Shown here in pieces: positions 1,111 to 22,249 of a stretch of DNA of 64,000 nucleotides. The position numbers and the translations under genes were made by a program. Position 1 is the stretch's first letter. Each line of letters begins with the position of its first letter. Source of the DNA: Tridacna crocea (taxonomy: Eukaryota > Mollusca > Bivalvia > Cardiida > Cardiidae); NCBI GenBank assembly GCA_943736015.1, contig OX031059.1, positions 59,469,159 through 59,533,158 on the forward strand, written 5' to 3'. The notes below the pieces were generated by a model. The model was not told the DNA's origin, searched no databases, and saw only the letters and a list, made by a program, of their open reading frames with translations.

Positions 1111-2482
1111 CTTTTAGCTAGTTGGCATTCCACCTTGTCTAATGAATTAAAAATTTCTTCGTTGCATTGTCTCCAGTCTGCTCTTGTTTGGTACTTTTCT
1201 ATAAGCATTTTAGAACATTCATTACCTCTTCTGAAGTTGAACAGCTGAACTTTACAGAGAGTTATATTGGCAAGTTTTCTCCAATTTTGAATATTGGTTG
1301 AATCCTGTAGTAAATTTGACTGTTTAATTATCATTTTGTCACAGTATCTTCTTAATTTAACCAAATCTTCCGTCAAAGGAAGCATATCCTTCTTGTTGTA
1401 TCTTCTTTCTTTAGTGGTTTGACAAGCTATACTGCCAATCACATCTTTCCATTCAGTTGAATAGAGTGTTAAGAAATCGATTGCGTCTTGTCTGTCACCA
1501 CTGTTTCTCTCTTTGATTGCCTGCCCCTGTTTAAATTCTGCCAACCGTTTAACCAACTGGCCCATTTTTTTTGCGGTCTCCGGCTTATCAAACATAATAA
1601 CACCATTCAAACTTGTTTCATCACTCACTCTTACTACTTGTTTCACAGCATCAATAATATCATTGAATCTTTCTGGTTTTATATAAGTTACCAGCTGGTT
1701 TTGTCTCCGATGAAGCGAATCAGGTACTAACCTACATTTTAGTCTGCCTAAAAGTCTTATTCTATAACGAACTTCTGCAGCTCTATTCCTTCCAAGTCTT
1801 CCATACATAACTTGCCCAACCTTCATGATGCTATAATCATTTTTGACACTTTTTCCTATGTCATCATTTTTCATGGTTTCCATTACATTTTGGTAAAATT
1901 CTGTACTTTCACCCTGATTAAAAACTCCAGCACCATACAGTAAAGCTCTTGAAGCTTTAACTTCACTTGCTTCATGGATACCTTTTGTAATTGGTGCAAA
2001 TTTACAGTTTTTCGAGTGCCTCCACAATTCTTTTTTAATCATAAATTTTAGACAGTACTGACAGGGCAGATAATCCATGGCTGAGTGCTTTCCATCTTCT
2101 GGTCTTCTTGCAATAATAAGAGGACCTTTTCCAGATTGGAGCTGATTTACATTATAAATGAAGTCTCCCTGGTTTCTAAGCATATCTAAGGCTCTCTCCC
2201 TCTCTTTAAATACATCAGATTGCTTATCTTTGGTAGGTGGTGGCAGCGATCTTATCTGATTTTCACCTTTATGCCATGTACATAAATGTCTTGTGATTTT
2301 AAAGTCCAGTTTTCCACAAAAAAAACAAGCATGCTGTTTAGAATAATCATGCAATCCCTGTCTGATGTCCGAAACTGTTTGAACTTTATGACCTGAAGTA
2401 TAGATAATCATTTGCGACCCATCACAAGAAAAATGGACAATCTGGGAATTCCATAAACGAAATATTTGAAAGAGATCAGATT
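1111..2482 (-). CDS. Last visible exon: zinc fingers and recombinase-like region
   Basis: The exon begins after acceptor tgtgcag at 2484-2483 and ends at donor AG/GTAAGC (GT at 1110-1109). It encodes about 457 residues starting ESDLFQIFRLW. Visible motifs are CFFCGK...TRHLCTWH (CxxC then H-x5-H), the conserved-looking IIARRPE, LPCQYCLKFMIKKELWRH followed by SKNC (CxxC-x11-H-x4-C), and near the end VQLFNFRRGNECSKML. The first 2 bases complete the codon left by the 4180-4123 exon, and it ends in phase 2. The reading frame stays open upstream into repeat DNA as far as 2651, but that part matches a dispersed repeat from about 2523 onward, so the acceptor at 2483 is the better start. The next exon lies off the window. 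Assignment to Crypton-like recombinase-derived proteins is inference. Confidence 0.85.
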
Positions 2483-5400
2483 CTGCACAGGTCAGTTCAT
2501 GTTTGTATTTCAAACTAAAATGGTTGTCTAAGGACAACTGGTGTCGAGCCCGCAAACACTTGAACTTCAAGTGTGACCTTGACCTTTGACCTACATGAAC
2601 AACAAATGTTTCAAATGGCACATCTACTCGTAATGGGGAACAATTGTGCATCTACTCGTAATGGGGAACAATTGTGCAAATTTATCTTGAAATCTATCCA
2701 AAATGTACGAGTTATATTCTGGACAAAACTTTGACCTTCTGCTATGACTGACCTTGAACCTACCAAAACAAATGTTTCAAATGGCACATCTGCTTATAAT
2801 GGAGTACAAGTGTGCCACGTTATTTTGAAATCCATCCCTAAATGTTAGAGTTATGGTCCGAACAAATTTGGAGGCACGATCACACTAACTAATGTACTAC
2901 ACGGAACTGCGTTTGTCACAACTATGTCATGCTCACCGTAAATGGGCTTGACGAAAATAATATTTAGTACAGTAGAATGAGAATTCTACATTTAGAAAAT
3001 CTGCACAAAGCAAAAAGTTTGACCCCGGTCAGTATGGGCAGTCAGGGCAGTCAAATAACTTATTTGAATAGTTTTGCAGCCTTTTATGCAATTCAGACAT
3101 CATGGAAAAGTGATTTCATTGCATTCTTTCTTTTTTATGATAACAATTATCAATCAATTTATGTGGAAGTAATATTCCAGACATGCGCAATTTCATCTTT
3201 GGACACTGCAGATTAACATTGACATCAAATATGTATACCAAGTCAAATTTTTGACAAGACACTTACACTAGTTCTAAAGGAGGACAAGCATTCTGATAGT
3301 ATTGCATAGCAATACAAAGTTCCCTATCTACTATATATATCCTTTGTAACAATGCACAAGTAAAAAGTTGCTCACTTATCGATTAACCCTTTACCCCATA
3401 AGGCATTCCAATGGCAGCTTCAATTGGCCCTAAATAACCGCAAGGATGAAGCCTTTTCTTATGTTTAAATGACACCTTTTGATAGGATAAAAAACATTGT
3501 GACAAAAGGTGAAATTGCTCATCACGAGCAATTTCACCTTTTGACACAATGTTTTCCAAGGGCTCCTACAAGCAATGTGTAGAAATGTGTATCTATGGAT
3601 TAAAGGGTTAAAGGCATAGTTTGCAGCTGGAAGAAAAAATATCTAAAAAGAAAAGCTATTCTAAAAAAACTAAGTATCATATTTCAAGTACCAATCATTC
3701 ATTTTTCCTCCAAAAAATTAAAATGTTTGATCTAAATTCTTTTGTGGTTTAAGACTGAACTCTTCATTAGGTGTTGGAAAGTAAAAACTAAGTTTAGAGT
3801 AAATCAAAACATGACCTACACAGCAGTGGTTGAAAAACAGAGGGCCAAGATGGCCCTAGATCACTCACCCGAGTTCTAAATTTAAAAAAAAAATTATATG
3901 ATTGTCTTAGTCAAAGGACACAATGCAAATTTACACAAAAGGTCACCTGATAGACATAAAGCTTATAATAGGCAAAGCCCTGTAGGAGAGCCAAAAATAG
4001 TTAAACTACAAAGCAAGTGAAGTAAACAAGTCATTCCAAATAGATCTGCAAGAATATCATGAATTACTTTGGGATTCATTTTAGTCAGTAGAAATAAACT
4101 GTTTCAAAGTTAGATTATTTACCTTCAGAATCAGACATACATGCAGAATCTGCTTCACTGACAGCTGCTGGTTTTGTATCCTGTTGAAAAAAATATAAAA
4201 ATGAAACTATGCATGACATTCCCAACAATTTAACCCATTACCACACGAGAAAAATTTAGACTGGTTCAAATTGAAAGTATTTGCAGACGACAAAATAAAG
4301 GTGACTGAAAAATAGAAATTTGTTTTGGAAAGGGTAGAAAACACTGTGGGAAAAGGAGAAAATGCTGGTTACCTACAGTGTTTTCAAAAGGCTTCTTTCT
4401 CAGGGGCGTCAAAAGTAGGGATTGAGTGGTAATGGGTTAACATGTGTGTAAAGCAAAGACACTGAGGAGCCTTGATGTCCACATAGTGCATTTAGAATAT
4501 CCGCTGGTCGTATATAGAAACTTCCAGTCAGTACCTATCTACAGAGCGCAAGGACAATACTTGAGTCAGACTGCAAAGACATCTGAGTCTTTACTTGGTG
4601 CATGTATGTTATTGTTTGAAATGTCATGCACAAGCTCATTAATTTATCAAAGTGGGCAAATATGTCCCTATATTGCTCACCTGAATCACAATGAAATAAG
4701 GTGCTAAGCTACCATTTCAATGATGAAACTTGAATTTTTTTTTAACATATTTCTTCAAACTCATTTTTGAATCTCTGTTAGAAAGAAAGATATATGAACA
4801 AGAATGGTCGTCCAAGGACAACTGGTGTTGAGCCCGTAAACATCTGACCTTCAGGTATGACGTTGACCTTGAACCTACCTTATCTTATCCACTTACTTTA
4901 ACTTATCCCTTCCCTCTACAGCATCCATACTTGTCAACATATTAAATTATCATGGATAAACTTTTGGAACAATCATTTTTCTGTGAAATGGTTCAAATAA
5001 TTCAAATGGCCCATGGTTTCATAGGAGAACATTTTCTTTGATTTTAGCAATTGCTTTTCTTGGATCAAGCTGGCCTAACCCCCCCCCCCCCCCACACAAA
5101 ACATACACTAACATAAAGTAAGAATACATGTACATGAAACACTTATGCCCTTTTGATAGCAAACCCCTCTTCAGCATGACTTTGAAAGCTGATATTGACT
5201 TACAAGAATGACATGGAACAGTCATTAGCAGATGAGTATCAACAATAATTACCTGAAAACATTGAAGCTCGAATTGAATTTCAATACACTTGAAGTAACT
5301 TGGAATTACTGAATTCCCTAGTTGAGTTTTCAAGTTAATTCTTTGGGATAAATATTAAATTTTAACATTGACATTTGACATATTTTACCTAAATTAGATC

Positions 5401-8400
5401 AATATTGATTAATGCTACCTGCAAATCAACTCTGATAAAAAATTAAAAGAATACGTTTAGTTCATAATCAAGTTTTGAACAGCCAGCCAGACTGGTTATC
5501 ATACAATGCAGTGGCACAAAATTGATGAATATCTACTTTATAATGTTAAAAACCAACTAGATCTGTCGCAAGCTGATATATACCTCCACAAGCACCTTGT
5601 CAGTGGCTCAGTATTATAACTCGGACTTTCCCTCAGACTTTCCCTAAATACTCAAGTTGATTGCTTCTATACATTAAATGATAAGCAGTAGACACTTAAA
5701 ACTTACACCAAACAGTCCTTAGTTTGAAAGATATGCCCTAAATAAAATTTAAACAAGCAATTTTGTAGAAATGATATCCCCCGCTTAAAAAGACTTTTTT
5801 TGATACAAACTTATTAGAGGTGTTGTGTTTTGTATGTACACATGGCCTTTTTGTTATTGGTCCATGATGAAATTATAAATTAAGCTCCCTTTTTCCACAG
5901 CACAGCATTTCATTACATAAAAAATATATATAGGAGGTCCATAACAGGACAATATTTTAGTATCCTTTTCCAGAAACTGGCATTTCATGAAATGAAAGCA
6001 AATAAAGAAAACATTCATAAAGCCCCCTTTTTCAATGACGCATCATAAAGAGAAAAATTATATCAACGGAATATCCAATGGAAGACATGCATGAAGTTTC
6101 ATCAATTTTTGTGAAGGACTTGATAAGATATGCCTCTAACAATATACAAGGCAACATTGCTGCCATTTCAAGCAGCTAGCTGTAGACTGACGTGTTGGAA
6201 TTTCTAGCACCTACCTGGGTAGCTCAATGGATATATTGTGTTACTTGTGATCTAAAAGGGTTAAGAATAGACTGATGGATGTACAGATGGGTGGACAGAC
6301 GGATGCACTGGTCAATCAACCAATAAAAATATGAAGTTTCATTAAACTATGTGCCCAAGTTGAAGATAGATTGATAAAAAATTAAATTTGACATGAAGCC
6401 CCCTTTTTCTATGATACAGTAATAAATTGCAAAACCCTGACAGCACACGCTAAGGTCACATGATCTGTGAAAATCTCATCAAAATCCGTTAACATTAAAG
6501 AGTAGGAATGTCAATCACAATTTAAATGAGGCAAACATTGTGACCAAGTTTCATGAGTATCAGATTGAAAATCTGGCCTCTAGAGCATACACAAGGTTTT
6601 TTCTTTTAAGGTTTGACCAGGTGACCTAGTTTTTGACCTGGCATGACCCATTTTCAAACTTATCTAAGATTTCATTAAGACAAACATTCTGACTAAGTTT
6701 CATGAGTATCAGACTGAAAATAAGGCCCCTAGGCACACATAAGGTTTTTCTAAGATTTGACCTAGTGAACTAGTTTCTGATCCAATATGACCCAGATTCA
6801 AACTCACTGACATTTCATTAAGGAAAACATTCTGACCAAGTTTCATGAGTACTGGACTGAAAATGTGGCCTCTAGTGCATACAAAAAGTTTTTCTAAGAC
6901 TTGACATAGTCTTTGACCCAACATGACCCATTTTCAAACTCTTCTGAAATTTCATCAAAGCAAACATTCTGACCAAGTTTCATGTGCATTGGACTGAAAA
7001 TGTGGCCTCTACAGCATACACAAGGTTTTTCTTAGATTTGATCTAGTGACCTACTGTTTGACCCGACATGACCCATTTCCAAAGTCATCTGAGATTTCAT
7101 TAACCCTTTACCCCATAAGGCATTTCTATGGTATCTGTAACTGACCCTAAATAACAGCAAGGATGAAGCCGTTTCTTATGTCATGTGTATATGACACCTT
7201 TCGATAGTGTAGAAAACATTGTGGCAAAAGGTGAAATTGCTTGTCACGAGCAATTTCACCTTTTGCCACAATGTTTTCCAAAGGCTTCTCCATGGAGTGT
7301 GTAGAAATGAGTATCTATGGAGTCAAGGGTTAAAGCAAAAACATTCTGACCAAGTTTCATGAGTATCAGACTGAAAATCAGGCTTCTAGTGCATAAACAA
7401 GGTAAAAAGTTGACAACAAACTGACAACAAACACAGCACGATCACAAAAAATGCACTTAAATAAAATATCTTTTGCAACTTCTTTCAATTTGGACAAATC
7501 TAAAATGTTGTCATCTGATAACGAGTTAACATGTGTCAGTGTAAAACACCCAGCATTTTAAAGAACCAGGCAGAGCTATCATCAGCAGTTTTGTCATGCC
7601 TCCTTGCACTAACCCCTGTACAACTAGGGTGTTGCTCATATAGGCAACCAAAAGCGAGATAAATCAGGCACATACGAAGCAATTCAAGATGAGGGATGGG
7701 GGAGGGGCCCCAACCATGAGATACAGAGACTTACCACAGTTTGATAGCTTGTAATTTAGGAGTTTGTTTGCATTTCAATTAAATGAATCAAAACTTAATA
7801 TGCTATCTGTACTCCATCACTGCATGATCAAAAGTATAATATCAATTTGTAGGCCTTAAATTTTATATCACTGAATTAAATATTTGAAGTTTCCATCTGG
7901 CTCAGATTGCCCCAGGAAATAGATCCTTTTTTGCGTAGGAATATTTAATTAAAATTTGTAACTTGCTAACTATTATTGCAAAAATTCATTATTACCTGTG
8001 TATTCTGAAGTCTAAATCTAACTATTGCTTTTAAACTATAATTTTCGTGTAATTCGTATAATACTGAACTGCATTCCCTTGGCAACTAAAGCCCATTAGA
8101 GGATGTTTTGAAATGAGGACCTGATTATATATATTTTAAACTTTGGGGAAAGTTTTGACATAAAAAAAAAAACACCGCATATACTTACTAGATACGGATA
8201 TGTAATTGAATTACTGTCACTTTCGTCATCTGATGGAGGGATTTCTTCAACAATACTAGTTTTTGGCTCGTTGACGATTGGTACTTGACTGTCTGAATGT
8301 TTGGTTAAATTACTGTCATTTTCTATAGCGGCTGAAGGGATTTCTACATCAAAACTAGCTGTTAGCTTGTTGACTGTGGACAAATTACTGTTGCAATGTT

Positions 8401-11400
8401 TGGTTGAATCAGATTGAAGGATACCGGTATCTATGTCAAGACTAGTTGTTTGCTGGTCGACTTTTGACAGTTGACAATTGGAACATAGGGCTAGATTACT
8501 GGTTCTGTCTATATCTAGACTAGTTGATGCCTGGTTGACTGCTGATAGTTGGCTGTTGCAGTGTTCGGTTGAATTGCAGTCACTGCCTATATTGAATGGA
8601 AAGACTTCTACATCAAGACTCGTTGTTTGCTGGTTAACTGTTGACAGTGGACTGTTACAATATTTGGACGGATTACCATCACTATCTCTAGCCAATGGAG
8701 GGATTTCTATGTCAAAACAAGTTGTTAGCTGGTTGACTGTTGATATTTCACTGTCGGAATGTTTGGTTGGAATACTGTCACTCTCTTTATCGGATGCTTG
8801 GATTTTGATTTCAAGACTAGTTCTTGGCTGGTTGGCTGTGTGTTCAGAACTTTCTGAAACTGCTGGTGACATCATTTTTTCAAGTGGTGGCAGAACATCT
8901 TGGGCCTCTGGAATAAGTCAGGAGTTTTTTTTATTAACAATATTCTAGATGCATGCTAAATATCTTCCAAATTTGGTTTGAAAGCTTTACTTATTACTTG
9001 GTCAGGGTTCATTCTAGAAATGAAATTTGGAGGACCATTTGGCCCGTTCAGTGAGCTCTTTGTAAAATCTGTCATCCCACAACATAGGGCTAATTTTGAT
9101 CTTAGAGTGATAACCTCAATGAAATATTTTGGCAATGCTACATCCGTAATTTGAACACTCTAGGCCTAATGGTTTGAGAAGAGAAAATTTTTAAAGATTT
9201 CTTTCTTTACCTACCAATGCAGGATTCCACATAAAGCTAATTTTCAATGCAGAGTAATTATTTTACATTGAAGAGTAATTATTTTAAGCATTTTGATAAC
9301 GGACCATAAGTATATATGCTATATTGCAATATAGGTCTATGATTTTTAAAAGATTTCCTTTTTTATCTCCACGTAAAATATGGGATCCCACAACATTTGG
9401 CTAAATTTCATTGTAGAGTCATTATACTAGATATTTTGGTAGAGGACCATAAGGCAATGAATGCTACATGCCATATACCCCTGCCTACGGCAAGGGAAGA
9501 CAAGAGCTGTCATTGACGGATAATGTTCCCCAAACCAGTACTTGTCACAAAGTGTATGACATAATTTGACATCCTCAGCTGTTTTCCTACACAGGATCTG
9601 TTTGTGCACAGAAAATTAATTGAAAAGTCAAATGCAAGATAAAACGTAAATATGTCATTAAGCCCCCTTTTCCTATAACACTGTTTTTCATAAATGAAAT
9701 AATAAAGAGTATAATGGTCAGGAGTTTTTGATAAATAACTGAAAAGTGAAATTTCACTAAAATTTGGCTAAAAATTTAGAAGATATTTGAGAAAGACAAA
9801 TTTCAACATGGAGCCCCTTTTTCCCACAACAAATCCTCAAATTGAGAAACAAGGGTAAACTACACTTTCTCTCAATGCAATCTAAATTTCAAGTAAATAC
9901 TTTTATCTCTTCCAGAGATATCTTATAAGATTGAATTCTTAAAAAAATCAAAGGGGAAAAGTTTCTCCTAAAAATGTTTATGGAGTTATGGTTCTTGTTG
10001 AATAGACCTCATATTAGTGTGAACTATGTGTGTATTAAATTTGAGACTAATGGCTGTAATACTTTTGAAGTAATTGCCATCACAAACTTTTATTACCCCC
10101 AAAAAAGAAACATAGAGCTATAATACATTAAGTCACCTATTCCCGTAACAAAGTTTTGTGTAAATGAAGTACAAATAGCATATGGTCTGGGCTTTGTTTA
10201 GAAATTTGAATATGAAATTTCATAAAATTATGACAAGTAATTAACTCTTTACCAAACAACAAAATTTTAGACTTGTCCAAATTCAAAGCATTTGCAGACA
10301 ACAAAATTAATGTGACTCAAAAATTGAAACTTTACTTTAGAAGAGTAGAAAACATTGTGGGAAAAGGAGGAAATGCTGGTTAACAACATTTTCTCCTTTT
10401 CCCACAATGTTTTCAAAAGGCTTCTTTTCCAGGGCCGTTAAATGTCGAGATTGTGTGGTAACGAGTTAAGAAGATAGTAGAGAAAAACTAATTTTTACAT
10501 TAAGTCCCCTTTTTCTATAATGCAGCCTCAAATTCAGAAACAGGGAAAAGGATATCTGGGAAATGTTTTAACCCATTACCACTCAATCCCTACTTTTGAC
10601 GCCCCTGAGAAAGAAGCCTTTTGTGGGAAAAGGAGAAAATGCTGGTAACCAGCATTTTCTCCTTTTCCCACAGTGTTTTCTACCCTTCCCAGAACAAATT
10701 TCAATTTTTCATTCACGTATATTTTGTCGTCTGCAAATGCTTTCAATTTGGACCAGTCTAAAATTTTCTTGTGTGGTAAAGAGTTAAGAAGTTCATATAT
10801 GAAGTTACATCCAATTTGGTCCAGGGGTTGTGCAGAAATGGCTTCTGGATGTTTCAGGGGTTGTGCAGAAATGGATGGATGGACAGACATACAAGTATAT
10901 GATTCCCAGAAATTTTTTTGTTGAAGAACATTGTGAGAAACTGTTTACTAGCAATTTCTCTATATCACATGTTTTCCTAAACATCATATTCAAACAGCAT
11001 CAAAAAGGCTACTCTTTTCTCTATAAATAAAGCACACTAATACATACCCCCCCCCCACACACACACACACTTAGAAAGTGCTATCAGAGAAAGGAACAAC
11101 TTCTAAAACAAAGTTCATTTATGACCTTGACTGGTGCAAGTTTGATGTATATGACCCAAAAACAATAGGGCACTGCTTTGGGTCACAGGCCTCGGCCGAG
11201 TGGGCAACATGGGCGAAGAAGTCGCCCGATTTTACAAAACTTTGCTCAATTTGCCAAGAAAAGCGAAGTCCTGAAAAAATTGGGAAGTTGCCTAGCACAT
11301 AATATTGGCCCAGCGTCCAGTGTCTAGTCTACCAAATTAGCGTGTGCCATACCAGTTAGTGTCCAATCAGCAAGTTTAATTAGTTTACAACATACCAAGA

Positions 11401-14400
11401 GCCTGATTTGACAGGGGTAGGACTTTCACTTTCGTATAGATACTAAATTTAGCAAACCGCGTTTCAAAAATAGAGGTCCGACAAACACTGATAGACGGCG
11501 CTGATATTTGTGAATAATATAGGGGATTGTCCCATGGTGTCATAAAGTTAATTAACAATGACCAGATATCGGTCCTTCTTTGTCAACTTTATTTCCATGT
11601 TTTAAATGAAATATTCCAGTTTTGAAAATGATGCTATCAGTACTTACTTGCTTATCATCATTTACCCCACACTTTGAAATTTGTTGTTATTTGGAGTTTT
11701 CCAAAACTAACAGATTTGATGACATCCTTTAGTCTTAGACCATCTCCTAGATCATGTGACTTTAATTTGGTGCAATATAGTATCACGTTACAAAGCTTTC
11801 GACGAATTTTAGCAAAGTCACATGATTCAACTTCAAAATGGTAGCTTGTCAACGCTTCAGCATTTGGATGAAATTGAATATATTCTATATGCTAACTAAA
11901 AGATAAAATTTAAAAAAAAAAGTTATTGTCTTTGATTCTAGATAGATCTATGACTTCTGTTGATTATATAATATTTCCTTGATAGGACTGTAACTACCAC
12001 GAACCGCCGATCAACAACGCTTTAAAAGTAAATAAGGTATTAGTTGTTAAACAGTGGTTTTATTTACGATTTATCAAATATTCATCAAAGACAAATGGTA
12101 TTCAGACATATATTTTGGATGTCTCTCGTACTCTAAAACTGGGTCTAACTTGCTAGTAGAAAGTTGAAAACATTGTGGCAATAGGAAAAAAAGTGGAAGT
12201 AAGCTTTTCTATGTTTGACAGATGACTATTTTTTTTTTATTTTATATATCTTTAAACACTAGTTACAGCCATTGAGCAGTTATCTATTTGTCTGCTGCAA
12301 ATGCTGTCAATTTGATAGTTATATTTAAATCTGGTAATGAGAATGATTTTTAGCAAAAAACTATGTTCAGGATTTGGAAACAAATAGATCTAGTGCTTGG
12401 AATATTTTGAAAAGAAAAATGTGCCAGGACAAACTATTTCTCAAACAAGTAATACTTTCTCTTTCCATTGTAATTTTTTTCCACAATGTTTCAGTCCTAA
12501 AGGTAGTACATGTACATGAATTTAGCAAGACAAACAATGAATAAATATGTTTTGAGTAGTTTCTAAAAGGAATAAGTAGACTATACTGATCATGTAAAAG
12601 ATAAAAAGCATAAAATAATTTTATTCCTTTTAGATTTACATGATTTTCAATTTTATTAATTTGTTATGTTGTTAGGTGTTGTTAATTCCCTCTATATTTT
12701 GGCCCACATCTATTTTTTTTATGTCCTTCTGAAATTCTCCCCAAAGTCTGACCACTTCTCCCCATTAGGACTAGGGAGAAGTCACTTTTCCCCAATTTCT
12801 GAGAGTTGGCAGAGGCCTGTGGTCATAGGCAAAATTAAGTTCAATGGTCATAGGTCAAATGGCTTTTGAGTTAGAGCCCGGAAATAGTTTTCAAGCAAAG
12901 TTCACCTGTTACCATGACCAATAACACCTTAATTTAAAGGGCACTTCATAGATAACAATTTTCATAAAGTTTCATGATCCTAGGTCAAATTGATTTTGAG
13001 TTAGAGCATGGAAAGGACAAGTCTACAGAAGGACGGATGAACAGACAAACAGACATGGGGAAATCAGTATACCCCCTCCACTTTGTATTTGGGTTGTGTA
13101 ACAACTATCGACTTATAGGATGAATAGTGTCAATATTGAAATACTTGCCCTTTTTGCGCCACCAAAGATTGTTGTAGTCTCCGTAATCAAATGAAATTTC
13201 TTCTCCTGTTTCTATGTTTCGGGATGCAATCAGGATAAGCCTTGGTTTGTTTTTGAAAGGAAAAAGCTTCATTCTAGCATTACATGAAGCCCCTCCTTCT
13301 TTTGCATCATTCACATACTGTCCCAGCCGCCCTTTTGAATGTGTGGCATCAATGCTGAAAAATAAGAAGTTAAGAAAGAATTATGTCTTATAATCAATGA
13401 AGCATTTTGTTAGTCCTGTTGAAAAAAGAAAAGCACTTGGCTACAGAATATGCTTCCTGAACAAGTGCTTGTCAAATAAAGTTTAACAAAAGTCCACTGA
13501 GGTACTATGGTGAGTGGATTAAAAGTTCGTTTTTTTCATTCAAACATGATCTCTCTCTGAGTACAGTTTCATGTCAATTTTTTTTGTGTGCTATACATGT
13601 TCAAAGTGCTTTCAAATTGATGAATTGAATGCTTTAGAAGATAAGGCTTTGAAAACAATTATCATAACCAAGAGCTGTCAGAGAGAGATTATGCTACCCA
13701 AACAAGTGTTTGTCACATAAAATATGACATACATTGACCGAGATACAGATAACCATTCCACAATGTTGTACTCCATGTGTGACTTTGACCTTTGACCCGC
13801 CAAACAAATGTTTCAAATGGCAATCTACTTATGATGGAGAACAATAATTATTGTGTAAATTTCTTATGAAATCTATCCATAAATAGGAGTTATGGTCCCT
13901 ACGAAACTTTAACCTTTAGCTGTGACCTTGGCCTTGAACCTATGGAACAAATGGTTTTAATGGCACATTTACTTATGGTGGAGATCAATTGTACCTAGTT
14001 TTTTTGAAATCCATCCATAAATGTAGGAGATACGATCAGGACAAATTGCAATAAACAGGCACACACACTAACTAACGCACATACACTGGACTGTCATTGT
14101 GTCAACTATGTCTTGCTCAATGCAAGTGAGCTCTACAAAAACCGGGAAAAAGTAATCTGCACAATATCATAAAGAGTTAATATGTGAAGTTTCATCCAAT
14201 TCGGTCAAAGGGTTGTGGAGAAATTCCTTCGGACGGGCAGATGGAGGGACGGAAGGAAGGATGGACTGACAGACAAAACATTAACTATATGCTTGTCCTT
14301 CGAAGAGCATAATAACAGATACCAAGTGTAATAGTACTATAAACAGATGTAGATGAAATACTATTTATTGAATATAACAACCACAATCGCCACCCTAAGC

Positions 14401-16041
14401 ACTTTTTGCCAAGAAGAACCAAAACATTTTAAAGATTTGTCTACCTACCAGACTTTCTTTCCGTTATATTTGAAATAAAACATGTAAAATCTGGGAACGT
14501 GTCCTCTTTTCGCCAGTCTTTTGGATGAAATTTCATGTTGCAGTTGTCTTTTTGATATAACGTTTTTGTTCTCAAGAAGTTCCCCAGTATATTCTAACAG
14601 AAAGTCTCCTTTGTCATGATTTCTTTTACAGAATACCCCATACCCTGCAATATAAATCAAATATCAATTGTTTTGCTTATATATGCAAAGCAATCAATCT
14701 CTACTATTTTCAAAATCAGATAATTCAGATATATGAATATATATGTCTAATTATGCTAGAAATTGTACTCAAAAAAGATCTTGAAGTTATGAACATTTCA
14801 TTTAAATATAATTTAAAACAAGAGAACTGCATGTGGATGCCTAATCCTTGGTTGTGGGTTACTTTAAAGTGAACAAAAACTCTAATTTGAAAGAGGGGCA
14901 TTATTCTTACAAAACTGCATTTAGCTATTCCCCTTCATATTAGAGATTACTCTTTTGAGAATCAACCTATATTCCGAGTTTCAGGTCAATTTCTACAGTG
15001 ATAGCAGAGATATAATAAAATGTAGAAGTTATTGCATGCAGACAACATCAATAATGACAACAATGATGACACCAAGGTTATAGCAAGAAATGAAGTAACT
15101 AGACTATAAGCAGTCAGTTATTTTGAAGGGGAGATAATTTGTGGCACACTGGTCTGAACACCTCAAAATCCTACTCATCCATGATCAATTAATTTGTTTG
15201 TATTGGGTTTTAACAGTTATACTGTGGCGGCTGGTGCACCTAACCATGATTTTCTTTCATTTCTCACACCAGTACAACCACAATATTCAATCCAGCTGGT
15301 CATCCCACTTAGGCATGCCCATTGGTGAGAGACAAAATTAATGATGCATGTCGGATTGACTTTTGTCAAATGTCGGAAAGAATGTTGGCTGAGCCAGGGT
15401 TCGAACTTACGACCCTAGGATTGACAGCACTGTACTTTACCAACTGAACAAACTTGGCTTGGCTCATCAATGATCAAGTTATGAATATTGTGATAAAATT
15501 TTAAGACTGGCTTAGTGCCATTCGTTATTCCATGCAATTTTGGAGAAAATTGAGCCCACAATTTTGGAGAAAGTTGAGCCCAAGCAGTGACTCCTAAAGT
15601 GTAAAAAGAAATGTAGGAGTTATGGTCCTGACAAAACTTTGACCTTCAGCTATGAATTTGACCCTACCTAAGCATGTTTCAGATGGCACATCTACTCATG
15701 TTGGCGAACAATTGTGCCAACAACTTGCCAAGTTATTTTGAAATCCTGTAGAAGTTATGGTGTGCACAAATTCGGACGCACGCACACACTAACTTACAAG
15801 GCTTATACACTGAACTATTATTGTTATAATTATGTCTCACTCACCACAAGTGGGCTCCATAAAAAAAAGCAAAAACTTTTCACTAAATCTTATTTCACAA
15901 TATACCTGAATGTTGCTACAAATTTCACTTTTACTAAGTATGATTAATGTGTATACCTTTTAATTTGGAAATGAATTTCTTTTCAAAACCATCCTGGTCT
16001 ACACCAGCTTCAATCCAGAACTCTGGCGAGGATTTCTGTCT
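1111..16041 (-). CDS. SET-domain / zinc-finger / recombinase-like chimeric protein (gene model, 3' partial)
   Basis: Six exons on the minus strand join in frame: 16041-15957, 14644-14449, 13354-13149, 8907-8189, 4180-4123 and 2482-1111 (2636 nt, about 878 codons). Their phases at the five introns are 1, 2, 1, 0 and 1, and all are compatible. Order of parts: KMT5A/SETD8-like SET domain (roughly residues 25-160), a Ser/Thr/Asp-rich linker of about seven imperfect repeats (about 170-400), a finger CFFC...H...H (about 475), a finger CQYC...H...C (about 563), then a helical region with LFNFRRGNECSKML near the end. SET proteins act on lysines, usually of histones. The C-terminal part resembles, from memory, a multicopy family in fish and invertebrates related to Crypton-like tyrosine recombinases. 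The catalytic recombinase residues would lie beyond the left edge. Four introns use GT-AG; one is predicted GC-AG. The introns hold many MITEs. The gene may extend to a first exon at 28072-28046. Whether it is a host gene or a mobile passenger is not settled. Confidence 0.82.
2523..2960. repeat. Degenerate mollusc-type repeat with 'gaccttgacc' motif
   Basis: It starts ggacaactggtgtcgagccc and contains two units with tgtttcaaatggcacatct (2605 and 2774). It ends in 'cacactaactaatg...actatgtcatgctcaccg...gggct'. Related copies are at 4800-4885, 13670-14150 and 15540-15875. It sits in an intron only about 40 bp upstream of the exon at 2482. Confidence 0.65.
3383..3611. mobile_element. TTAA MITE, family 2 (229 bp)
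   Basis: Both ends carry TTAA next to CCCTTTACC or its complement. The core is a near-perfect hairpin centred on ATCACGAGC-type sequence, with arms AAAGGTGAAATTGCTC and GAGCAATTTCACCTTTT, enclosed by ACATTGTG and CACAATGTTTTCC. TTAA targets and CCC starts suggest a piggyBac-type mobiliser (inference). It is intronic. Other copies are at 7100-7333 and 40419-40679. Confidence 0.75.
3838..3890. repeat. Head fragment of the 145-bp-core pearl-like element
   Basis: The hairpin GGCCaagatGGCC followed by 'actcacccgag' matches the start of the element at 35388. The tandem core is absent here. Confidence 0.45.
4123..4180 (-). CDS. 58-bp exon of the SET chimera
   Basis: A pyrimidine-rich acceptor ending tttcaacag (AG 4182-4181) and donor GAAG/GTAAAT (GT 4122-4121) bound a 58-bp exon. 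It encodes 19 residues, DTKPAAVSEADSACMSDSE, plus one base. It starts in phase 0 as required by the 8189 donor, and its spare G completes GAA with the next exon. The acidic/serine composition continues the linker. The exon is small, but both splice sites and both phases agree. Confidence 0.75.
4230..4440 (+). mobile_element. TTAA MITE, family 1 (core half-deleted)
   Basis: Ends TTAACCCATTACC and GGTAATGGGTTAA. The internal text (TTTAGACTGGTTCAAATTG, TTTGCAGACGACAAAATAA, CTTCTTTCTCAGGGGCG) matches the family. The central palindrome has lost most of its second arm. It is intronic, about 50 bp from the 4180 exon. Confidence 0.85.
4800..4885. repeat. Fragment of the 'gaccttgacc' repeat
   Basis: 'caaggacaactggtgttgag' matches the start of the copy at 2523. 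It is truncated after 'cgttgaccttgaacctacc'. Confidence 0.6.
5079..5098. repeat. Poly-C tract
   Basis: About 15 C, then 'acaca'. Low complexity only. The ORF read through it on the minus strand is not convincing. Confidence 0.8.
5870..6440. repeat. Diverged repeat with recurring 'aagccccctttttc' phrase
   Basis: The phrase recurs at about 5882, 6017 and 6390, each time followed by an A/T-rich stretch and 'gatacag/caatgacgc'-like text. The same phrase recurs at 9656, 9815, 10125 and 10500. I read it as an old tandem-cored repeat. No gene is seen. Confidence 0.5.
6500..7440. repeat. 145-bp-core pearl-like array, interrupted by a MITE
   Basis: Several diverged units contain 'gacctagt', 'catgacccattttcaaact', 'gaccaagtttcatgagtat' and 'gaaaatgtggcctct'. 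A TTAA MITE (7100-7333) splits one unit. The tail 'gacaacaaacacagcacgatcac' matches the tail of the full element at 36770. It lies in an intron of the SET chimera. Confidence 0.7.
7100..7333. mobile_element. TTAA MITE, family 2 (234 bp)
   Basis: TTAACCCTTTACCCC at the start and AAGGGTTAA at the end. The hairpin core has arms GGTGAAATTGCTTGTCACG and GAGCAATTTCACCTTTTGCC. It is inserted inside a 145-bp-unit array, so it is younger than that array. Confidence 0.85.
7441..8095. other. Intronic stretch, no feature seen
   Basis: AT-rich unique-looking sequence between the pearl-like array and the linker exon. No exon, RNA gene or clear inverted-repeat element was recognised. Confidence 0.4.
8189..8907 (-). 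CDS. Linker exon with about seven imperfect repeats
   Basis: Acceptor cttattccag (AG 8909-8908) opens the exon with AG, which completes GAG with the spare G of the SET exon. The donor is CTA/GTAAGT (GT 8188-8187). The exon has 719 nt and encodes about 239 residues: first EAQDVLPPLEKMM, then about seven 26-34 residue repeats with the pattern S-T-V-N-x-x-T-T-S-L-D-[IV]-E-I followed by D-S-x-x-x-T-K-H-C-N-S. Composition is Ser/Thr/Asp/Asn-rich with no hydrophobic core, so it is probably disordered. Repeat number may vary between alleles. The ATG at 8875 is an internal Met in this model, although the exon alone could be mistaken for a gene start. Confidence 0.78.
8996..9480. repeat. hAT-like end plus about 153-bp tandem units
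   Basis: It starts CAGGGTTCATTCTAGA, the same 16 bp as both ends of the element at 18390-19904. Inside are three diverged units with 'tcccacaacat..ggctaa' (about 9073, 9225, 9380) and 'ggaccataag'. No matching right end was found. It is intronic in the SET chimera model. Confidence 0.5.
9650..10240. repeat. Diverged 'aagccccctttttc' repeat
   Basis: Units begin near 9656, 9815 and 10125, and the series continues at 10500 after the inserted MITE at 10241-10469. It belongs to the same family as 5870-6440. Confidence 0.5.
10241..10469 (+). mobile_element. TTAA MITE, family 1
   Basis: TTAACTCTTTACC at the start and GGTAACGAGTTAA at the end, with central hairpin GTGGGAAAAGGAGG...CTCCTTTTCCCAC. 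It is inserted into the 'aagccccctttttc' repeat. Confidence 0.85.
10568..10787 (-). mobile_element. TTAA MITE, family 1 (reverse orientation)
   Basis: TTAACCCATTACC and GGTAAAGAGTTAA ends. The core GAGAAAATGCTGGTAACC / AGCATTTTCTCC is nearly perfect. It lies about 100 bp from the copy at 10241 in opposite orientation. The overlapping short ORFs on both strands are MITE sequence, not genes. Confidence 0.85.
11047..11070. repeat. Poly-C / (CA)n microsatellite
   Basis: About ten C followed by about seven CA units. Confidence 0.85.
11085..12125. other. Intronic stretch, no feature seen
   Basis: Mostly unique-looking sequence. A GC-richer patch at 11185-11300 has an open plus frame but no recognisable domain or splice signals. 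I see no RNA gene. Confidence 0.4.
12130..12350 (-). mobile_element. Degenerate family 1 MITE
   Basis: 'gttgaaaacattgtggcaat', 'tgtctgctgcaaatgctgtc' and 'aatctggtaatgagaatg' match the family consensus in order. The core palindrome is eroded and the ends no longer carry TTAA. Confidence 0.5.
12800..13085. repeat. Mollusc-type dispersed repeat ('cataggtcaaat..gagttagagc')
   Basis: Two diverged units with 'aggtcaaat..nttttgagttagagc' (12850 and 12985) are followed by a 'gacggatgaacagacaaac' tail and 'cagtataccccctcc'. This is a typical repeat tail rather than coding sequence. It directly follows the 3' side of the SET exon. Confidence 0.5.
13105..13148 (-). other. Alternative 3' extension of the SET exon ending in a stop
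   Basis: If the predicted GC donor at 13148-13147 is not used, the frame continues through KYFNIDTIHPISR to a TAG at 13107-13105. This would give a SET-only protein without linker and fingers. No clear poly(A) signal was identified nearby. Confidence 0.45.
13149..13354 (-). CDS. SET domain, C-terminal exon
   Basis: Acceptor ttttcag (AG 13356-13355). The exon reads C-IDATHSKGRLGQYVNDAK...GGASCNAR, then PRLILIASRNIETGEEI and SFDYGD. These match the C-terminal SET motifs: the usual NHSxxPNC is NDAKEGGASC here, and the tyrosine of [YF]DYG is kept. Loss of the His of NHS is notable, but I recall a multicopy fish family with ND at this place. The exon ends WWRKK-G before GG/GCAAGT, a GC donor with an otherwise good consensus. 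Using it puts the reading frame exactly in phase with the 8907 exon. Confidence 0.82.
13670..14150. repeat. 'gaccttgacc' repeat, fuller copy
   Basis: It starts 'aagagctgtcagagagag', has two units with 'tgtttcaaatggca'-type text, and ends 'gcacacacactaactaacg...actatgtcttgctcaatgcaag'. It is intronic. Confidence 0.6.
14160..14315. repeat. 'gacagac'-tailed repeat end
   Basis: 'gtgaagtttcatccaattcg' and a 'gggacggaaggaaggatgg' tail resemble the repeat end at 10795-10895. No gene is seen. Confidence 0.45.
14449..14644 (-). CDS. SET domain, N-terminal exon
   Basis: Acceptor atattgcag (AG 14646-14645) and donor CTG/GTAGGT (GT 14448-14447). It encodes G-YGVFCKRNHDKGDFLLEYTGE, then LLENKNVISKRQLQHEISSK and RGHVPRFYMFYFKYNGKKV. 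GxGVF, KGDF and EYxGE are the classic SET-N motifs, as in KMT5A/SETD8. If translation continued past the donor a stop would follow at once, which supports the splice. The first two bases complete a Gly codon with the upstream exon. Confidence 0.88.
15215..15470 (-). mobile_element. tRNA-derived SINE
   Basis: On the minus strand the head reads TTTGTTCAGTTGGTAAAGTA (A-box-like) and, about 35 bp on, GTTCGAACCCTGGC (B-box-like). A non-tRNA body then runs to about 15215. The spacing and boxes fit a tRNA-type pol III promoter. It is not a functional tRNA, because the acceptor stem does not close. It is intronic. Confidence 0.6.
15540..15875. repeat. 'gaccttgacc'-family repeat copy
   Basis: 'ggacgcacgcacacactaac' and 'aattatgtctcactcaccac' match the ends of the copies at 2523 and 13670. 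The short plus ORF here is repeat sequence. Confidence 0.55.
15957..16041 (-). CDS. Pre-SET exon
   Basis: Acceptor gatttttgcag (AG 16043-16042) and donor AAAG/GTATAC (GT 15956-15955). It encodes RQKSSPEFWIEAGVDQDGFE and KKFISKLK plus one base. Trp-x-Glu followed by GF..K is the segment that normally leads into the SET GxG motif. It starts in phase 0, so the upstream exon must end in phase 0. The candidate at 28046 does. Confidence 0.78.
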
Positions 16042-16255
16042 CTGCAAAAATCAATGAAGAAATGATCATAGACAGTAAAAGATTGAGACTTATTGTGTTA
16101 CGTCATACATGACACATATTGTGCTACATTTTTTTTTCCTTTTCAGGCCATGACATCATACAGGAGGCATTGTGATACAGTATTGTAAACTTGATTTTCT
16201 ACCATGATTTGTGCATAAGGTATACTTTTCGAGCTGTATGATTAGATGTATACAG

Positions 16256-16390
16256 GGTTCTCCTTTGACCCGGGACTCCGGGTTCTGACATTTGGAAATC
16301 CAAAATGACCCGTTTCTGCACTCAAAATGATCTGCCTAAGTGTCATTTCTGATGCATGAGATTTCCAATCAAAGGGTCCTATAAATTATG
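16256..16390. repeat. hAT-type terminal fragment
   Basis: 'cagggttctcctttgacccg' is a hAT-style start, and 'aatcaaagggtcct' about 120 bp on is a weak inverted partner. No duplication was seen, so this may be a short non-autonomous copy or one end only. Confidence 0.3.
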
Positions 16391-16639
16391 TCGCATTCAG
16401 GCAGGAATGTAGACTATAATAAACATGATCAGTAACAGTGTAAAGATGCAGTTCTGTTTATCACATGTAATCAAGCTGTCGAGTGGCAACTTATTTACAT
16501 AATGAAAACATGATAAAGGTGTTAATCAAATTATCTAGTTTAAAATGACAGGTTTTCAAGTTAACTGCTAATCTAATGAACGAGTTAATGTCAAAACATT
16601 CACTAATACTTCTAAAAGAATAATAGATTTGAAAAAAAA

Positions 16640-16765
16640 AAGATCACTAGAAAAAACATGAAAAGCCATGACACAACAGAAATCAGTTTGACATTGTCCG
16701 ATCAGAGGCACTTCAGACTATCTTTTCATCCTAAGTCACAAATCACAATGTTCAAGAGGAGATCA
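16640..16765. repeat. Fragment of the repeat shared by 25.8 and 37.5 kb
   Basis: 'gaaaagccatgacacaac' and 'gatcagaggcacttcagact' correspond to 'gaaaatccatgacactac' and 'gatcagagggacttcaaact' at about 37490. The copy is diverged. Confidence 0.45.
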
Positions 16766-17810
16766 TTCTTATATAACAATTAGTCAGTAACTAAGCAGTA
16801 AATACATGGATCCATGGTGATAAGATAAACCGACTACCTTAGTTACTGTTGCCAAGGTCTCACAAACAAACGTAGTCAATACATATACAGTATAGCAGAG
16901 AAGCTACTTAAATCATGCTGTCATGACTGTTTCTCTCAATAAAATTCTGGAAAAAGTAGTTTAATCATATATTTCTATCAATGATAAATTCTCAGTAAGC
17001 AATTTATGTGATAAACGGATAAACCATACGGTTAAACAGCTAAGCCAAGAGAAAAATTTCCAATTTCCACCAGATCAAAGTTAGACTTTTTTAAAATTGA
17101 AATATACTCCTAGTGAGGAAGAACTACACGTCAAAGTGCATATTGTAGTCAGCAGGTACTTTAAATCCAAGACTAATCATCATGTAATCTGCAATCTGAT
17201 CTATATCTACACATCAGAGATTGTATATACAATCCCAGTACACATTCAGCATATTCTTCATGCACCATGAGTTAAGATTAATGTCAATTTGAAACATTGG
17301 TGACAAGTTACGTGGCCACTTTTTGGATTAGCATAGGTTATTGAACAAGGTTAGATATTCAAGTAAAAGTATTTTCTTTTATCAATACTTCATATAGGTC
17401 AATTTTACCTTTGTTTTCCAGTTTTCTCTTTCAGAGGGGGAAAATTATAGAATACTTTAAATTAATCCGTTATCAAGCGCTTATCAGCTCTTTGCATAAG
17501 TACAAATTTTCAGCAATCATCACAATTTAAACTTGTTTATAGCCTCTGTGTGATCTCACGTCATCGGTACACGTTTGCAAAGCACCTTTTTAAATTTTTT
17601 TTTTTTAAATTCAAACGTTAAAAGCACAACATAAATAAAGAGAATTGCATTCTTCCAACGATAACATTCGGTTATTTGTGAGCCGAAATAGCAGAAACCA
17701 AAGCAGGACATTGGGTAGAATAAATGTGATGTCCTGATCGGTCGAATATCGATTTCCACGGATCCATGTATTGGATTTTCAAGGGCAGGTGATTCTGGAT
17801 TCCCATGAAC
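16766..17810. other. No gene seen
   Basis: AT-rich sequence. In the gene model with a first exon at 28 kb this is part of a 12-kb first intron. A potential donor near 17408 (minus) gives only a short frame without ATG. No RNA gene was recognised. Confidence 0.4.
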
Positions 17811-17881
17811 GGTCCAGTACGGCTTAAGTCTATAGAGATAACTCGCTTGATGGGGGATTTCCCTATTCACAAGAGTCAAAT

Positions 17882-18345
17882 ATCTTTCCTTTTAAAAAGA
17901 ATATAGATCTAGTCTAATAGTTCTGTTAGTTACTTCTATAAAAAATTTTAAGTGTCATGTGATATCCATAAATATATTTCAAAAATGAAAAAAATTATAG
18001 TAATTTTACTTAATGCGAAAACATGCTTCCAGGGAATACCGTGACAATGGATCGAAATTGTCAAAATAATTGTAAAAGATGACAGATATCTGCGGTTAAA
18101 AGGTGTCTACTGAGGTATGTTGCAGGTACATTTTTGTGTTGTCTATCGCTAGGCTAAAGTAAAGTATGATCAATGTTTGTTTCGTGGGTTCTTTTGGGTG
18201 GTACAGGTTATCGAGATGCTGCATTTCTTGTGTTTATATTATAAAGGGGAGATTTTTCTTTCCAAAATTTTATCATTTATTTTGGATATAGAATGTCAAT
18301 TTCCTGTGGAGATACCAACCAAGAGACTGACAGACAAAGTGACTC
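17882..18345 (+). repeat. Dispersed repeat S, copy 1
   Basis: It contains 'ggttaaaaggtgtctactga', 'gcaggtacatttttgtgttg', 'tctatcgctaggctaaag' and 'atttattttggatatagaat'. The same series occurs in inverted form at 24820-25135, forward at 25311-25505, and as a fragment at 26878-27000. Confidence 0.7.
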
Positions 18346-18389
18346 TATGTATGCTCCAAACATGTTTTGGGGAGTACAAGAATTACTGT

Positions 18390-19904
18390 CAGGGTTCATT
18401 CTAGAGCGTGCCCTTGCACCATTAGCTCATACTTTTCAGAAATGGCACATAAGATGACCTTCGACAGGGCCGACCAGGTGCACAATTTTTCCAGAAAAAG
18501 TTTTGCTCCTGGGCTTGATAATCAAATTGCCCACATTTTTCCAAATTCCACCAAAAATATGAATTCTGTGTCTTATCCCACCAAAAGAAATATTATAAAT
18601 GATAACTTTGAAAATATTTTGATAGATGATAAAGAGATGCCCCCTCAAAATAATGCTTTTCAATAGCTTACAGATGTTCTGTAGCTAATTGAAAATAACC
18701 AAGATGGTGAACCTAATGTTCAATAGCTTACAGATGTTCCGAAGCTAATTGAAAATAACCAAGATGGTGAACCTAATGTTTTCTGTCTTCAAAACAGACT
18801 GAAAAGCTGATGATTCTATAATATTAATAATCTAAAATGATGTAAGAAAGATGACATGTATTTTTCAGAGAATCCTTTGTTGTTAGTGATTATTTGCTCT
18901 TGTATATCATTTTGTTTGATGAAATCTCCAATCATTCTATTCTAAAATTCCTGGAATCCCCTATAAATAGCTAATCAAAGCACCGCGGTCTCCTTTTCCT
19001 CTGTGGCCTACTTTTATCAGAGGATTAATAATTAAGTTCTATGTTGTACTGAAAACAAATTATTAAACCATTTTTTTTTAGTCAATATAAATTTTATGGA
19101 GAGGTACTATAAACGGGAATATTCCAATATGACCCAAAATTGAGAGTTGAATCACTTGAAAAATGAGCAAGGGTAATAAAAAGCAGCACAGTGCTAACTG
19201 CTGTAATCAAATATATATAATGACTCATAATACAGAATTTTACCTATTTAATCTTTCCCTCCCTCTTTTTAAAAGATGTAATATTAGTAAAAATTCAATT
19301 GACTTGTGTTGGTTCTAAGGTTTATTCTAAGTACTGTATTTTTATTAAATGAAGTATTTGACCCCAAATTTCTGAAATACTTTTTCACTGTAGATGGATG
19401 CATAATTTGCAGATTCCAAATAATATGACGGGGGAATAAGGGTATTAGCTAATTCATCCATTGTGTAACGGGTACTGGGCGAGTGATAAAGAATGACGCA
19501 TTTCGATTGGTTGTAAGTTTCCCAGGTAGCCACACCTATATCTGCGACTACTAAACTTTAGAGATTACCTAAATGTGTGAAAATTTCCCGCCTCGCTAAC
19601 CATCTTGTAAACAATCAATTGATAAACTAATCAAGCCCAGGATCGTAAATCTGTCTGAAACAATCCGAATCACCAGATGTTTGAATTAATTTTCCAGGAA
19701 TTGATAATATGGAAGTAAACTCGCAATGAATTTCGCTGATAAAAACAACTTAATTGGGTATTGATATGCTTTACATTTGTTTTCTTTTGGTGATTGATAT
19801 TTTGTTAGATACAGAAACGTTTGATCGGATATATCTAGAGATATGATATATATACTGGTACAGAGCCCTATGGCCAACACTTTTCATTTCTAGAATGAAC
19901 CCTG
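18390..19904. mobile_element. hAT-like TIR element, 1.5 kb
   Basis: The ends are CAGGGTTCATTCTAGA and its complement TCTAGAATGAACCCTG, a 16-bp perfect inverted repeat. No convincing 8-bp duplication flanks it. No transposase was recognised, so it is non-autonomous or only looks complete by chance pairing. It contains a 60-bp direct duplication at 18661-18780. The same end occurs alone at 8996. Confidence 0.6.
18661..18780. repeat. Two 60-bp direct copies
   Basis: 'caatagcttacagatgttc' starts two near-identical 60-bp blocks. The few differences suggest a recent duplication. Confidence 0.9.
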
Positions 19905-19929
19905 CTTGCTATAATATGTAGGCTGTGTC

Positions 19930-20425
19930 TTCACAATACAGAAAAGAGAGTTACAGTTACATGTACTACGAGGACAAAAAAAATGTAAGTCCTCACAACT
20001 TTATGGCAGAACTGTATTTGCTTTAAATATACACTGCGTCCTCACAAAAAAAAGAAGAGTAATAAGCGCATGCACAACATGGACAATTTCCTCACAAAAC
20101 AGAATATAGAGATAAATGTATTTACTATGTGGACTCTGTCCTCACAAAACAAAAATGAGAGTTACAGTTGCTTGCACTCTATGGACAATGTCCTCACAAA
20201 ACAGAAGAGAGAGATAAAGGTATTTGCTATCTAGACTGTGTCCTCACAAAACAAAAATGAGAGTTACAGTTGCTTGCACTCTATGGACAATGTCCTCACA
20301 AAACAGAAGAGAGAGATAAAGGTATTTGCTATCTAGACTGTGTCCTCACAAAACAAAAATGAGAGTTACAGTTGCTTGCACTCTATGGACAATGTCCTCA
20401 CAAAACAGAAGAGAGAGATAAGGGT
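19930..20425. repeat. 102-bp minisatellite with GTCCTCACAAAACA motif
   Basis: Near-identical units start at 20138, 20240 and 20342 (period 102). Each contains two GTCCTCAC motifs about 51 bp apart, and older diverged units lie to the left. A second array of the same unit is at 30050-30280. No coding meaning is seen. Confidence 0.88.
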
Positions 20426-20526
20426 AATTTTCAAAAAAATGAAGTTTTTTTTCTTATTCAAACTCAGCTGAATAGCTTTATACTTTTTAAGTTTAGTTTT
20501 AGCCTAAATTATGTGTTATATTGGTT

Positions 20527-20655
20527 TACAGTCAAAACGTCCCACCGTCAAAACGTCCCACAGTCAAAACGTCCCACTTTTGGTTAAAACGTCCCCCCAA
20601 TTTGGTTAAAACGTCCCACTTTTCCAAAAAATTGGTTAAAACGTCCCACTTCGAA
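20527..20655. repeat. Short-phrase array 'aaaacgtcccac'
   Basis: The phrase AAAACGTCCCAC occurs about six times at irregular 16-40 bp spacing, joined by GTC or TTGGTT. It looks like a set of subterminal binding motifs of a DNA transposon. No opposing inverted set was found nearby. Confidence 0.7.
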
Positions 20656-20760
20656 TTATTTAGTTTTTATTTTTTGGATCAGCAAGTCGGGGCAAAGCGA
20701 GTTGAAGCAATCCTTTACCTGCAGTGATGCATGGGCTTCCAACAGGTGGCCAAAACTGAT

Positions 20761-22249
20761 GTCCCAAGTGCAACACAGTTTTCCATGTTTAATCAGTGCA
20801 CTATAATTGTCTAACAATACACTTTAACTCCAATGTTATAATTTGTCATTTTTGTTAAAGCATACATCTAAACAATTAATGCCTTTTTAATACTGTGATT
20901 AGCCATTTTTGCATAAATATTTTGAAAATATATGTTTTTTTTTGCTAATTGAAATGTTCAGAAGAGCTTTTTACAGAATGTGAACTTTTTAGTTTAAACA
21001 TATTTAATTGTAATAATAATTACAAAAGGATTGTGACGAAAGCTAACGAAAGCTTATAAAGTCCCTTTTTAAGGCAATAATGTTTTCCTGCATTTATTAC
21101 TTATTGAAAGCAAATGCTGACACTTTCAAAATTTGAACTTAAACTGTCTACTTGTAAACATAAACAGTCATTTTCCAACCAACCTTAAAATGTTGCACTT
21201 GGGACACAACAATTGAAAAATGAATAGTGTAAATGCAAGAGCTATTTTTTTCAGAAACTGAATTTTATATAAAACAAAATAATATGGTTAGACTCGTAAA
21301 ACTACCATTAAAGGGAAGTCTTGGCCACCTACTGTGGAAAAGGCATCATCTAGGACAAGTTCTGCAGCAGCTTTTACCGATAGATAAAGATAGCATAAAA
21401 ATAAAAAACCGAGGTATTGATCAGAACCTTTAGATTGTACAATCTGTTCTATTCTGTTGTTGGCACATCACGAAATCAGGTTTTGTCTTGGCATAGATCA
21501 TTGTCATATTATTTTTCTGGTGCTAAAATTCCACTAGTAAAATTGTTGCACTTGGGACATCATAATTTTTCATGTGTGCAATATGCACAACTTCACTTTT
21601 AATAAACTTGGAGAATTCAGATTTGAATTGAACATTATTTTGTCTTAGAAAGCAATAAAAAACAAGAAGAAACAATGATCTTTACATGAATTTGTTTTTT
21701 TGAAACCTAATGGAGAAAAAAAAATCTTTTTTTTTTTTATGGTGCTAAAACCTATACTACATTCATTTTGTTTTGAATTTACATTTATCAACTTAAATTT
21801 TTATGTTTAACATCACTGATTGTGGTTTTAAATTATCTCACAATGTGAAATTGGTATAAATTCTTTCGTGGTAGAGAAGAAAGCATGGGGCTGATTTTGT
21901 CCCAAGTGCAACATTTTGCATACATATGTACATCTGATAAAAACTTCATTGAAAACCACCTTACCTTAGTTCAAAATGGTTAAAACTTTTTGCTCTCAAT
22001 TTATTTTGTGGAAAAACACTAGCTTACTGTAAGTATGATGTCCTATAGCATCAATACTCTAATCATTACAGAAAATGCTTAATGTTCGTTAAAAGAAATT
22101 TGTTATTTTTGTAATTTTTTTTGTTCAAAAGTCTTTATGTTTCTTAGTTCTGTGGAATAAAAATGGCACAACAAGTGCTAAAATAAGCAATATCTTGACA
22201 CATTATTAAAAATCCACAAAAGAAGACTGTTTTTGTCCCAAGTGCAACA
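20761..22249. repeat. Five dispersed copies of a 15-bp motif
   Basis: GTCCCAAGTGCAACA or its complement occurs at 20761-20775 (+), 21191-21205 (-), 21544-21558 (-), 21899-21913 (+) and 22235-22249 (+). Spacings are about 430, 353, 355 and 336 bp, and I see no similarity between the intervening segments. No gene is recognised in the interval. Confidence 0.8.

Follow-up and report, generated by a model that had tools for sequence, protein, structure and literature searches.

A predicted KMT5A-type SET chimera with finger motifs and a putative recombinase-derived region on one stretch of Tridacna crocea DNA

Results

Gene model

The DNA analysed in this study, called the window here, is a stretch of 64,000 nucleotides. 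Its minus strand carries a model of six exons. Judging by the size of the introns and by the SET family found, the DNA is probably from the nuclear genome of an animal.

15957-16041, minus: exon 1, N-terminal edge of the SET domain (KMT5A alignment from query residue 10; splice sites and phase)
14449-14644, minus: exon 2, first half of the SET domain (Pfam SET 0.0002 for the exon 2 piece alone, 22.2 bits against a cut-off of 22.4)
13149-13354, minus: exon 3, second half of the SET domain (Pfam SET 3.8e-07), with a GC donor at its end
8189-8907, minus: exon 4, linker made up of some seven degenerate units, each 26 to 33 residues long
4123-4180, minus: exon 5, a short 58-base part of the linker (splice sites and phase)
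1111-2482, minus: exon 6, finger motifs and putative recombinase-like region, 457 open codons, with a GT donor on the left

Joining of these exons gave 878 codons with zero stops in the joined-frame translation, and all five junctions are in phase, which agrees with the description in the earlier note of six exons keeping an exact frame over five introns; since the junctions were picked in that note, the agreement in phase is not an independent test. GT donors are found at four of the five junctions and match the consensus at 6, 7, 7 and 8 of 9 positions. The GC content at codon positions 1, 2 and 3 is 45, 37 and 31 percent, compared with 35 percent across the first 16.1 kb. If bases were drawn independently at the mean composition of the window, the 457 open codons of exon 6 would be expected about 2.5e-15 times per start. 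The frame of this exon also stays open upstream of its acceptor (2513-2651, minus) into an interspersed repeat (2513-2594) which recurs at 4797-4878, so the 514-codon open reading frame overstates the exon.

Both ends of the gene model are open. Exon 6 leaves through the GT donor at 1111, and exon 1 starts in phase 0 at an AG acceptor, so that a further exon is expected upstream. A crude scan of 16060-22500 has suggested a candidate first exon at 17711-17586, which is without further support, and a Pfam scan of 15 kb upstream in two of the three minus frames gave no match to E 0.01.

Some other features were also recorded in the window. Left of the last exon, a 156-base unit is present in two tandem copies which are 86 percent alike (5-316). 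Repeats common to 4223-4457 in intron 4 and 10234-10787 in intron 3 also form inverted pairs, with arms 82 to 100 percent complementary, resembling non-autonomous DNA elements. On the minus strand at 42485-43144, a 220-codon open frame contains a HIRAN-like domain, whose score of 24.2 bits (E 3e-05) falls slightly short of the cut-off of 24.7.

SET domain

Judged by sequence, the presence of a SET domain in the first three exons is beyond doubt; over the 162 joined residues, the match to Pfam SET reaches 2.2e-16. Among 74 distinct PDB matches the best 14 are all KMT5A/SETD8 chains (2e-21 to 5.8e-20), and the 15th-best, at 7.2e-14, is named only as a SET-domain protein. The KMT5A-like SET domain claimed earlier is thus confirmed. 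An NCBIfam match of the SET part to AnkI/LegAS4 (20.5 bits, where the cut-off is 550) was rejected, as it reflects the common SET domain only.

For the residue-level comparison, human KMT5A numbering was fixed through the isoform 2 chain 7d1z, of which residues 210-340 were aligned. The SET domain is covered nearly end to end, and 54 of the 131 aligned residues are identical.

14591-14589, minus: equivalent of Y245 (residue mapping, exon 2)
14486-14484, minus: equivalent of Y271 (residue mapping, exon 2)
13311-13309, minus: equivalent of N298 (residue mapping, exon 3)
13308-13306, minus: Asp at the H299 position (residue mapping, exon 3)
13191-13189, minus: F149 at the Y334 position (residue mapping, exon 3)
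13185-13183, minus: equivalent of Y336 (residue mapping, exon 3)

In KMT5A, the active site comprises the tyrosines Y245, Y271 and Y336 and the N298-H299 motif. The alignment has shown that the three tyrosines and N298 are kept along with Y274, D335 and D338, whereas H299 is replaced by Asp. Other differences from KMT5A are Phe for C270, Gln for R295 and Tyr for R228, insertions of 8 and 4 residues, a different C-terminal end behind the SET domain and, in the joined model, a long additional C-terminal part. Moreover, the tyrosine at position 334, which in KMT5A is linked to monomethylation, is absent, and F149 aligns in its place. As far as the alignment tells, the SET protein is a diverged relative of KMT5A and not a plain orthologue, and its predicted product type differs from that of KMT5A. 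According to a passage in PMC6214909, the Y334F change could turn SET8 from a mono- into a dimethyltransferase, and Y334F structures appear in a table of PMC3529403. From the natural Phe at this position, addition of two methyl groups is predicted if the enzyme is active; the activity is uncertain because of the Asp at H299 and the non-KMT5A end behind the SET domain. Among other invertebrates, three copies of KMT5A are mentioned for the annelid Capitella teleta in part of PMC12153100, and a Kmt5a transcript is named for an oyster in part of PMC6740020.

Joint between the SET and linker exons

13105-13148, minus: read-through of exon 3, with 14 extra residues and a stop at 13107-13105, if the GC donor is unused (open reading frame list)

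The donor of exon 3 is a GC site (AGG/GCAAGT) which agrees with the consensus at 7 of 9 positions, and the acceptor at 8907 has the phase that matches this donor at 13149. Both strands of the window together hold 14 GC sites of at least 7/9, including the one at 13149; GC sites below 7/9 were left off the donor list. Once the SET domain has ended, the sole same-phase GT donor ahead of the stop at 13105 has 4 of 9 positions, and in those 81 bases a GC site of at least 7/9 in the right phase is expected about 0.003 times (product of site counts). Such a coincidence of position and phase, if the site were unused, counts for its use as a splice donor. On the other hand, the GC donor and the early stop on read-through make two separate genes possible. 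A KMT5A paralogue would then end at 13105, a separate gene for the finger and recombinase-like part would start at a pair of Met codons soon after the exon 4 acceptor or upstream of it, and the fusion would be an artefact of the model. At distances of about 450 and 480 bases past the stop there are two AATAAA motifs, at 12657 and 12625, which would suit such an ending, but poly(A) motifs are common locally, with nine (7 AATAAA and 2 ATTAAA) in the 4.2 kb from 13105 to 8908. It also agrees with two genes that one predicted fusion of a histone modifier was judged a likely false annotation in the annelid study, as stated in part of that paper (PMC12153100). These points are opposed by an uncommonly strong GC donor, which immediately follows the SET domain and has the right phase, and by its phase-matched acceptor. 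Moreover, a GT donor at 13145 (6/9, phase 2) could reach the linker through the acceptors at 8849, 8822 or 8816, which gives the chimera another possible route beside the GC site. We consider two adjacent genes unlikely; the SET and linker exons probably belong to one transcript.

Repetitive linker

Exon 4 holds about seven degenerate units, and the repetitive linker of the earlier description is borne out by a repeat family visible in the DNA itself. As the unit lengths of 26 to 33 residues come from units cut at codons, the frame was tested by the spacings at DNA level, which are 264, 99 and 99 bases; all are multiples of three, which fits coding. No sign of purifying selection is visible on the repeats: pooled pN is 0.28 and pS 0.34 over four full units (six pairs), the pN/pS ratio falls below this value in each of the other two frames, and the repeats were rejected as evidence of selection. 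Antisense to this exon, a 157-codon open frame lies on the plus strand at 8475-8945, perhaps as a by-product of the repeats.

Fingers and C-terminal region of exon 6

2271-2327, minus: C2H2-like motif C-x2-C-x9-H-x4-H (motif in exon 6)
2004-2063, minus: C2HC-like motif C-x2-C-x11-H-x3-C (motif in exon 6)
1218-1241, minus: FNFRRGNE, candidate first catalytic Arg box (likeness by eye; alignment test negative)

The CxxC..H / CxxC..H..C region read earlier in exon 6 is present as one C2H2-like and one C2HC-like motif. No Pfam zinc finger was matched at cut-off in exon 6, the best being zf-MYST (E 0.12; 12.5 against 28.8 bits). Other weak matches of this exon, namely DUF7647 (E 0.17 and 0.078), Ku_PK_bind (0.052), a further zf-MYST match (0.23) and a PHROG lipoprotein (E 0.088), are all far under their cut-offs and were rejected.

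A likeness to tyrosine recombinases was seen by eye from LTEDLVK to FNFRRGNE, whose R-x-x-E we take to resemble the first catalytic Arg box of enzymes such as Cre. A multicopy family of fish and invertebrates presumably shares this box and has comparable fingers, with H, R and Y residues in a tail further on. This by-eye likeness and the multicopy family make a recombinase-like tail a reasonable but unproven guess, in which the candidate first Arg box alone lies inside the window and the remaining R...H-x-x-R...H...Y residues would lie to its left.

The searches did not bear out the recombinase-family-like tail that had been claimed. No recombinase match was found for exon 6 in Pfam (to E 10 and to E 1), PHROGs, NCBIfam or PDB, these being weak tests made with a single sequence whose supposed domain would have its second half outside the window, and no DUF3504 or phage-integrase profile matched in six overlapping stretches of the exon. 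Hence the profile search of the joined protein suggested earlier succeeded for its SET part and failed for its tyrosine-recombinase part. The 156 C-terminal residues encoded by exon 6 were also aligned with bacterial and phage recombinases, and among 300 shuffles the real score was reached by 97 for XerC, 56 for XerD, 229 for FimB, 158 for FimE, 276 for lambda Int and 242 for Cre. In a profile comparison of the whole of P0001 with recombinases, the probability was 0.1 percent. These shuffle and profile comparisons count against the recombinase reading or are at best silent on it. Two structure models were unusable (pLDDT 31.8 and 37.9).

Relatives were looked for in viral, phage and prokaryote collections, where no homologue with the same architecture was found; these hold no animal genomes, so the result says little. 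With back-translated peptides of exon 6, viral contigs gave 3 matching stretches and prokaryote genomes gave 12; tblastn upheld none of them, and tblastn against phages to E 0.1 gave no match to the exon. Viral contigs were also scanned twice for degenerate motifs, which returned 2 and 5 stretches; none has a tblastn match to P0001 better than E 0.45, and all were taken as chance. The finger motif has zero matches in viral or prokaryote contigs, and the recombinase-tail motif zero in viral contigs.

Discussion

The locus is best explained, with a probability of roughly one half, as a spliced host gene for one chimeric protein, in which a KMT5A-derived SET lysine methyltransferase would be followed by a repetitive linker, C2H2-like and C2HC-like fingers and a region putatively derived from a tyrosine-recombinase transposase and continuing beyond the window. 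Our odds for this explanation and its rivals overlap partly and were judged, not computed. The chimera is favoured because all five junctions are in phase, the SET domain is of KMT5A type, the GC donor is well placed, and SETMAR and the Crypton-derived genes provide precedents. It is weakened because exon 6 showed no recombinase similarity in any search, both structure models were unusable, the donor of exon 3 is a GC site, H299 is replaced by Asp, the linker shows no sign of purifying selection, and no homologue with the architecture was found in the viral, phage and prokaryote collections.

Every step of the possible mechanism past the SET domain is drawn by analogy with SETMAR and with Crypton-derived genes. 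Binding to DNA would be the likeliest role of the fingers and the putative recombinase-derived part, and the DNA bound may be the ends of related mobile elements. This DNA-binding part may then bring the methyltransferase to chosen DNA, as SETMAR does with its mariner transposase. The SET enzyme, if active, should add two methyl groups instead of one, owing to the Phe at the Y334 position.

Instead of a host gene, the same DNA may be viewed as one copy of a transposon with a tyrosine recombinase, a mobile element that captured a KMT5A SET domain and carries it. SET-bearing transposons are known, for example the Phytophthora proto-Helentron (as described in part of PMC4067079). The ends of such an element are not searchable by terminal repeats, since animal Cryptons are reported to be without them in part of PMC3212892. 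However, the locus extends over 15 kb, its large introns contain other repeats, and the window has no further copy of any model exon except for a single match of 31 bases (E 0.01), so that a mobile-element copy appears improbable. Similar proteins are presumably multicopy in fish and invertebrates, which would suit the mobile element.

A host chimera is also conceivable in which the C-terminal zinc-finger protein is of other origin, with no recombinase descent. No search ties exon 6 to recombinases, which agrees with such an origin; the R-x-x-E likeness and the presumed related proteins speak against it, and the negative tests used one sequence, in which the later half of the presumed recombinase domain was missing. 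We regard this version as quite unlikely. Doubtful to the same extent is the boldest proposal, an animal family of tyrosine-recombinase elements with its own fused, KMT5A-derived dimethylating enzyme which would mark its own copies or target sites.

If the preferred reading of a host chimera holds and the parts form one protein, it would be a further union of a SET enzyme with a transposase-derived part, from families other than those joined in SETMAR, and would offer a natural case in which to ask whether the role of such unions is to direct histone marks to mobile DNA. The switch residue between Phe and Tyr offers a sharp biochemical prediction.

The SET domain of SETMAR belongs to another SET family. 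In SETMAR (Metnase), as outlined in part of PMC8327481, a SET methyltransferase is fused in frame to a transposase part that targets transposon ends. The present model would be similar in having a SET enzyme and a putative transposase-derived part in one joined frame, here read from in-phase genomic joins; it differs in that the latter part, if the reading holds, comes from a tyrosine recombinase, whereas that of SETMAR comes from a mariner transposase. Crypton-derived host genes, which include WOC, ZMYM2-4, QRICH1, KCTD1 and KIAA1958, carry a recombinase-derived domain, often together with other DNA-binding domains, and the sections of PMC3212892 concerned name no SET domain for them. Animal transcription regulators that contain recombinase-derived domains are described by Kojima and Jurka in the same sections, where these domains are proposed to bind DNA or protein. 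Unlike the Crypton / DUF3504 members, exon 6 does not match the DUF3504 profile. Under the mobile-element reading, the proto-Helentron, a rolling-circle element, would be comparable in having a SET domain on mobile DNA, whereas its SET domain, according to the part of PMC4067079 cited, is Clr4-like and lies in its own frame. No account of a KMT5A-recombinase union was found among the open-licence papers searched, and the main text of PMC12062965, where 10 million eukaryotic proteins were screened for transposon-domain fusions, is without SET domain, KMT5A, Crypton or tyrosine recombinase. SET-transposase unions are already known from SETMAR and SET domains are known on transposons, and the union of a KMT5A-type enzyme with a recombinase would be the new element here, if the parts belong to one protein.
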